This document shows, in pieces, positions 32,812 through 32,943 of a DNA stretch of 64,000 nucleotides. How positions within the stretch are numbered: position 1 is the stretch's first letter; the number at the start of each line of letters is the position of its first letter. Position numbers and translations under genes: made by a program. This DNA is from Niabella yanshanensis (lineage in GTDB: Bacteria > Bacteroidota > Bacteroidia > Chitinophagales > Chitinophagaceae). The stretch is from positions 1,736,001-1,800,000 of the forward strand of contig NZ_CP139960.1 in assembly GCF_034424215.1 (NCBI RefSeq), written 5' to 3'. The notes under the pieces were generated by a model. It was not told where the DNA came from, made no database searches, and was given only the letters and a program-made list of their open reading frames with translations.

Positions 32812-32867
32812 AAAAATGTTTATAAGAATGAAGAATAAAATGGAATAACCGCAAAAAATAGTATGGA

Positions 32868-32881
32868 AAGGCCTGAGCCTT
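32868..32881 (-). promoter_or_regulatory. Small hairpin in the metY leader, possible attenuator arm
   Basis: AAGGC (32868-32872), loop CTGA, GCCTT (32877-32881). On the minus strand TTTTTTG follows after about nine bases, so it is at best a weak terminator. Its CAGG (minus strand) could instead pair with CCTG in the hairpin at the end of the leader ORF. Confidence 0.35.
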
Positions 32882-32891
32882 AGAAGATATA

Positions 32892-32930
32892 TTATGCCCG
32901 CAGGGGCATACAACGCATACAGCAACACAT
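32892..32930 (-). CDS. Leader peptide [12 protein letters not shown] upstream of metY
   Basis: A 12-codon ORF: ATG TGT TGC TGT ATG CGT TGT ATG CCC CTG CGG GCA TAA. Four of 12 residues are Cys and three are Met, in front of a methionine-biosynthesis operon. The start codon sits in a perfect hairpin, CATTGC-CTTT-GCAATG (32928-32943), and the last codons in a second, ATGCCC-CTGC-GGGCAT (minus strand, 32894-32909). Ribosome stalling when charged Cys or Met tRNA is scarce would change which hairpins form. The leader runs 81 bases to the metY ATG. Not recognised as a described leader. Function inferred. Confidence 0.7.
32894..32909 (-). promoter_or_regulatory. Hairpin at the 3' end of the leader ORF
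   Basis: Six-base perfect stem ATGCCC/GGGCAT with a 4-base loop, covering codons 8-12 and the stop of the leader peptide. A ribosome stalled on the Cys codons would leave it free; a ribosome reaching the stop codon would melt it. Confidence 0.6.
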
Positions 32931-32943
32931 TGCAAAGGCAATG
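32928..32943 (-). promoter_or_regulatory. Hairpin sequestering the leader ORF start codon
   Basis: Perfect stem CATTGC/GCAATG with loop CTTT on the minus strand; the 3' arm contains the leader ATG (32930-32928). Confidence 0.6.

Follow-up and report, generated by a model that had tools for sequence, protein, structure and literature searches.

The window, that is the whole 64,000-nucleotide stretch of Niabella yanshanensis contig NZ_CP139960.1 that was analysed, carries on its minus strand the genes metY, metX-like and hom, preceded in the direction of transcription by a candidate promoter, a SAM-I riboswitch (S-box), the S-box terminator and a short Cys-rich leader ORF (Table 1). The leader ORF is situated between the S-box terminator and metY-metX-hom, and its end is separated from metY (ATG at 32809-32811) by 80 nt. 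The consensus of the -7 box is given as TAnnTTTG in the accessible part of PMC9723704; no good match to a -33 box was found at the usual distance from the candidate -7 box.

Table 1. Features of the metY-metX-hom region, in window coordinates, listed from the promoter side
Feature	Position	Strand	Evidence
Candidate promoter -7 box TATATTTG, ahead of the S-box	33267..33274	-	sequence
SAM-I riboswitch aptamer (S-box)	33135..33249	-	Rfam RF00162, 87 bits, E 3e-19
S-box intrinsic terminator, AAGCCCGCC..GGCGGGCTT and T-run	33069..33099	-	fold and terminator scan
Leader ORF, most likely start 32978	32892..32978	-	sequence; Cys cluster conserved in 16/17 same-genus genomes
HP1 hairpin CATTGC-CTTT-GCAATG, overlapping the codon before the first Cys	32928..32943	-	4/6 pairs with both-side change, 18 sequences
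Met/Cys codon cluster MCCCMRC, proposed stall site	32910..32930	-	sequence and codon comparison
HP2 hairpin TATGCCC-CTGC-GGGCATA, over the leader ORF end	32893..32910	-	98.1% of cells paired, 18 sequences, nearly invariant
HP3 hairpin AAGGC-TCAG-GCCTT	32868..32881	-	fold; T-run at about 32853-32859
metY, O-acetylhomoserine sulfhydrylase family	31501..32811	-	TIGR01326, 681.7 bits (cut-off 495.1)
metX-like gene	30411..31451	-	top match MetX TIGR01392, 333.2 bits (below cut-off 500)
hom, homoserine dehydrogenase	29130..30386	-	NF004976, 293.7 bits (cut-off 205)

The S-box is matched over the full model (1-108) at a score well above the gathering score of 44.4, and a GC-rich hairpin and its U-run lie between it and the leader. 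The initial annotation had seen no S-box sequence in the leader and had proposed that the leader senses sulfur amino acids instead of the usual SAM riboswitch; however, the riboswitch exists upstream of the leader, about 190 bases beyond the span then considered, and a leader standing in for the S-box is ruled out by the RF00162 match. An S-box was found by Rfam in 18 of 20 metY loci scanned (a scan that left out L015), the two without it being L021 and L023; at L023 a Flavo-1 match of 42.1 against 42 bits was recorded.

The 12-codon peptide described earlier at 32892-32930 is indeed encoded, with Cys or Met at seven of its 12 residues, but it is only the tail of a longer in-frame ORF. This ORF most likely has 28 codons, as several relatives begin at the matching M-x-Q position, and a still longer start at about 33038 is possible. 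The three hairpins of that description were recovered as well, HP1 overlapping the start of the 12-codon ORF, HP2 its end, and HP3 with a T-run preceding metY. The region 32800-32990 folds better than its shuffled versions (z -3.16, one of 200 as good), and in many relatives the loop of HP2 contains the stop codon. Five codons separate the last Cys from the stop in the window, compared with 0-2 codons in 35 of 50 leaders, a set that includes loci found by the leader model and whose fractions are therefore not prevalences.

For a comparison within the genus and among near relatives, metY loci were gathered from 39 relatives and the own genome. The Cys-rich leader occurs in 16 of 17 same-genus genomes, the own genome included; one of them (L020) reads MCYCMRC instead of MCCCMRC. 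Two other members of the family (L017 and L018) carry the leader and two members of other families (L021 and L023) are without it. The remaining same-genus locus, L005, keeps the S-box and has no Cys leader; as it lies on the same contig (G001) as L083, the two labels refer to one genome with the S-box and without the leader, which offers a natural comparison. Among codon pairs that differ in the four Cys columns of 16 ungapped same-genus sequences (the gapped L017 and L018 were left out), 108 are synonymous and 45 non-synonymous, counts that refer to pairs of related sequences and not to independent events. All 45 non-synonymous pairs stem from three sequences with one Cys lost in each, and only two of the 18 single steps from TGY are silent. 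The comparison suggested by the initial annotation, namely that of Cys codons conserved with changing third bases, hence gave a positive answer, and the proposal that the leader ORF senses a sulfur amino acid gains support from these sequence data.

Conservation of the RNA structure was assessed in an alignment of 18 sequences (A2), in which HP1 covaries (Table 1). Over the whole structure 94.0% of cells pair, a value reached by none of 500 shuffles. For the covariation score, too, none of the 500 was as high, and 38 of them matched the observed number of pair types. Since HP2 is nearly invariant, its pairs say little.

A covariance model of HP1-HP2 found matches in 23 of 396 genomes of the order. 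All 16 matches in the window's family have a Cys leader ahead of metY; the seven outside the family (L049, L051-L056, E 7.5e-5 to 7e-4) were rejected as true sites and taken as chance, because no Cys leader stands ahead of metY there. Within the family 41 of 294 genomes were matched. In 36 of these a Cys leader precedes metY (that of L060 starts at a codon other than ATG), and at the other five loci no metY was found. The own genome gave one real site and one at E 0.88.

A broader view was obtained from 124 non-redundant regions upstream of metY, for whose choice MetY similarity was the sole criterion; not all of them are from Bacteroidota. Near-identical regions were removed via shared 8-mers (188 reduced to 141), the set of 124 also omits L035-L082, since the leader model had found those loci, and 18 loci whose metY start was missed by the search pattern were left out. 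An ATG-initiated ORF with at least four Cys in seven codons was present in 34 of the 124 regions, the count from dinucleotide shuffles being 0.16 and that from the antisense strand 0; at a threshold of at least three Cys the count was 47, against 3.08 and 4, respectively. In the phylum-wide part of the draw, 11 of 50 regions had at least four Cys. The Cys leader is therefore common but far from universal at metY, and the counts of 34/124 here and 16/17 in the genus describe a short ORF, rich in the codons of one amino acid, that is conserved in front of an operon related to that amino acid. Among the carriers with names are Pedobacter, Mucilaginibacter, Cyclobacteriaceae, Lewinella, Saprospiraceae and a Flavobacteriaceae bacterium. 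When all twenty amino acids were scanned in 141 regions, which include model-found loci so that the fractions are not prevalences, Cys (50 vs 0.1) and Met (7 vs 0.05) stood out, followed by Thr (6 vs 1.3) and Ala (7 vs 1.75).

The N-terminal part of the leader, the number of Cys and their spacing differ between genera, and a C-C-M-P end is conserved in much of the window's family. In distant leaders the spacing and the hairpins differ, yet in-frame Cys next to the stop is always kept. Two individual loci deserve mention. In a Bacteroidales locus (L162) an ORF ending in HMSMRMPGC*, with more Met than Cys, occupies the position of the Cys leader between S-box and metY. In an Ignavibacteriae metY locus (L138) an upstream ORF with CCCRCCCRC and a terminator-like hairpin precede the gene, which may be chance or a further lineage.

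An S-box accompanies the leader in 19 of 20 leader-bearing loci and in 16 of 20 of a further leader-bearing set, and was found in 11 of 20 loci picked by hand as leaderless, one of which (L097) has a weaker Cys-rich ORF. A set of 58 loci was selected for the presence of both elements; the S-box precedes the leader in 52 of them, and the order is reversed in the other six (L110, L133, L136, L200, L202 and L211). The own genome has two S-boxes. The second (L002, C1:2197506-2197620, minus strand) has a terminator and precedes a gene for a cystathionine gamma-synthase/lyase-like protein that reached no NCBIfam cut-off; no Cys leader was found at this second S-box, which rules out that the leader accompanies every S-box gene of the genome. 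The leader therefore seems to go with metY, a member of the sulfide-taking enzyme family, and not with the S-box as such, although one contrast in one genome is suggestive only.

In Balneolaceae the S-box is preceded by a Cys/Met leader with a terminator of its own. At low threshold the leader was detected in 16 of 20 further loci of this family, and metY loci of the family (L110, L136, L202, L211, L231-L250) present two complete attenuators in series, leader and terminator followed by S-box and terminator. The sequence AGGGCTT (region 2) commonly lies at the leader stop, either overlapping it or directly beside it, and is able to pair with AAGCCCTT (region 3); region 3 also pairs with AAGGGCTTTTTT (region 4). 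Across 14 distinct sequences pairing in the 3:4 helix reaches 97.6%, and four sequences show one double change from CG to UA. The 2:3 helix is 88.8% paired and its first five pairs are kept in all 14; no double change was found in it and its measures do not beat column shuffles. Duplex energies compared with those of shuffled region 2 showed that 15 of 19 located loci (16 from Balneolaceae together with L187, L197 and L200; L249 was not located) beat 95% of shuffles, so that a mutually exclusive antiterminator and terminator can be recognised in these relatives. The pairing fell below the 95% mark in L110 (59 of 200 shuffles as good), L202 (18), L247 (14) and L200 (64). In L187 and L197, two loci of another family, GUGAGAAUG in the leader faces the terminator arm, with none of 200 shuffles as good; these loci have mixed Met/Cys leaders with a strong attenuator ahead of metY, and Rfam found no S-box there. 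Judged from sequence, the leader of Balneolaceae and of L187/L197 is a textbook attenuator in which the 5' arm of the terminator can also pair with the leader end, and from this geometry a ribosome stalled on Cys/Met codons would be expected to permit expression.

In the window's family, strands upstream of HP3 were compared with its arm in search of a classical antiterminator, and a pairing better than 95% of shuffles was seen in one of 26 loci, which is the chance level; the window's own locus was not among the passes (57 of 200 shuffles as good), and an earlier search in four loci of the family was also at chance. Downstream of HP2, the best hairpin (HP3) begins at a distance of 9-24 nt in 24 of 26 loci, in a set that, like that of the composition test below, includes model-found loci and does not yield prevalences. 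HP3 is on average more stable than shuffles (family mean z -1.12, p 1.2e-5, 26 loci), with a z of -0.93 in the window and values above 0 in five loci; a strong U-run after it is seen mainly in one genus (L018, L065, L067 and L073). Terminator-like sites follow 14 of the 50 leaders, model-found loci among them, against 2.7 in shuffles, and five of these 14 are HP2 itself. HP2 as the main terminator is disfavoured, because the U-runs after it are weak in most loci. The C over G skew after the leader is 0.364 (47 loci), and the value for 28 leaderless loci is 0.123 (p 7e-7), in a test that omits L138, L187 and L200 and defines its control region differently, as the last 100 nt before metY. A C-rich, G-poor stretch of this kind would be compatible with a Rho site that is covered when a ribosome stalls close to the stop, but HP3 is conserved too; transcription attenuation by Rho or by HP3 is ranked first among the candidate outputs in the window's family.

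Taking these observations together, we consider it probable (roughly 0.6) that the metY-metX-hom transcript carries a SAM riboswitch and a Cys-tRNA-sensing leader in series. Support from the sequences extends to the two predicted elements, their order, the Cys codons with silent changes and the wide phyletic range; translation of the leader, stalling and the sign of the response are predicted, as is the output step in the window's family. At high SAM, the riboswitch would end transcription at its own terminator. Transcripts that read through would contain a short translated leader whose Cys (and Met) codons lie near its stop; on these codons the ribosome would stall if charged Cys-tRNA were scarce, and the downstream RNA would then take, or be held in, a form that permits metY expression. 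With plentiful Cys the ribosome would complete the leader and leave, and expression would be cut. A wider reading would make this two-input RNA logic common to much of the Bacteroidota side, with the two elements in series on metY, the S-box preceding the leader in Bacteroidia and following it in Balneolaceae, L133 and L200, with mixed Cys/Met leaders alone where Rfam found no S-box (L187 and L197), and with a novel type of output in the window's family, in which HP2, HP3 and the C-rich stretch replace the classical antiterminator. We hold this wider reading tentatively, at somewhat short of an even chance, because the antiterminator search in the window's family neither supports nor explains the output step.

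Much of the same evidence can be read in other ways. The sensor may be the same and the output translational, with stalling at Cys codons altering the folding around the metY start and leaving transcription unaffected, as reported for mycobacterial poly-Cys ORFs. No canonical antiterminator having been found in the window's family and the leader ending so close to metY would both agree with this, and the accessible part of PMC13236596, citing another paper, states that mycobacterial Cys genes are under translation attenuation. Nevertheless the clear intrinsic terminators after the leader in Balneolaceae and L187/L197, and the excess over shuffles of terminator-like sites after leaders, some of them HP2 itself, make a translational output unlikely. 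The position of HP2 over the leader end, often with the stop in its loop, raises the question of the sign of the response in Chitinophagaceae, since a finishing ribosome would melt HP2, which is itself terminator-like in five loci. Stalling at Cys codons would then lower metY, leaving scarce sulfide to cysteine first, and a finishing ribosome would open HP2 and let transcription continue. This is quite improbable given the weak U-runs after HP2 in most loci and the Balneolaceae geometry, which predicts the other sign.

Two further alternatives deny the codons a role in regulating metY by stalling, and to both we attach very little credence. The ORF might encode a working Cys-rich small protein with a metal or redox role, as its high Cys content and the C-C-M-P end conserved in much of the family could suggest; however, genera differ in the N-terminal part and in how many Cys there are and how these are spaced, the hairpins overlap the Cys cluster, and the order relative to the S-box is reversed in other families. 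Equally improbable is that the TGY run is untranslated and kept for RNA structure alone. HP1 and HP2 do overlap the run and HP2 is nearly invariant, but third bases change silently, and distant leaders with different spacing and hairpins always retain in-frame Cys next to the stop. A series of SAM riboswitch and Cys-sensing leader remains the reading that we prefer.

Considering known systems, the full S-box with terminator before the operon is what is seen with SAM-I riboswitches (RF00162) ahead of methionine genes, whereas here a second, translated sensor is predicted between the S-box and metY. The present leaders share with the trp, his, thr and leu attenuators a short ORF rich in codons of the sensed amino acid, and in Balneolaceae and L187/L197 the leader end is also a possible pairing partner for one arm of the terminator; they differ in that the codons here are those of Cys/Met, and the search for a classical antiterminator in the window's family gave none. 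The tnaC leader of E. coli, which acts by Rho-dependent attenuation, has a control site next to the stop with C-rich, G-poor RNA after it, a feature to which the skew given above may correspond, and a Pro-stop end is found in many relatives; unlike tnaC, the window's ORF is without a terminal Pro, and Rho action and free-amino-acid arrest are hypothetical for it. In Actinobacteria (Mycobacterium, Propionibacterium and Bifidobacterium) poly-Cys leaders without clear terminators are predicted for cys operons in the accessible part of PMC1262725, and they resemble the present ones in a run of Cys codons near the leader stop, at the distances given above, and no obvious terminator; there they precede cys or cbs operons, whereas here metY of the Bacteroidota side is preceded, together with an S-box, the likeness being one of description.

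The accessible parts of PMC9723704 and PMC7366714 mention, respectively, clues to leader peptides ahead of amino acid operons in general in a flavobacterium and short ORFs in 5' UTRs of Bacteroides thetaiotaomicron, and those of PMC2965389, PMC4833913, PMC3766115, PMC12452182 and PMC1273637 make no mention of such a leader at metY. Leader-peptide attenuation is thus known as a kind, and its combination with an S-box at metY is apparently undescribed in the open-licence literature, where searches brought up neither a Cys leader at metY nor an S-box and a leader peptide arranged in series.

If the proposed arrangement is true, it would be a natural and widespread example of one transcript that combines a riboswitch with a translation-based attenuator in series. 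The own genome would provide the contrast of metY with both sensors and a cystathionine gamma-synthase/lyase-like S-box gene with one, and the arrangement would show how Bacteroidota link direct sulfhydrylation to cysteine supply.
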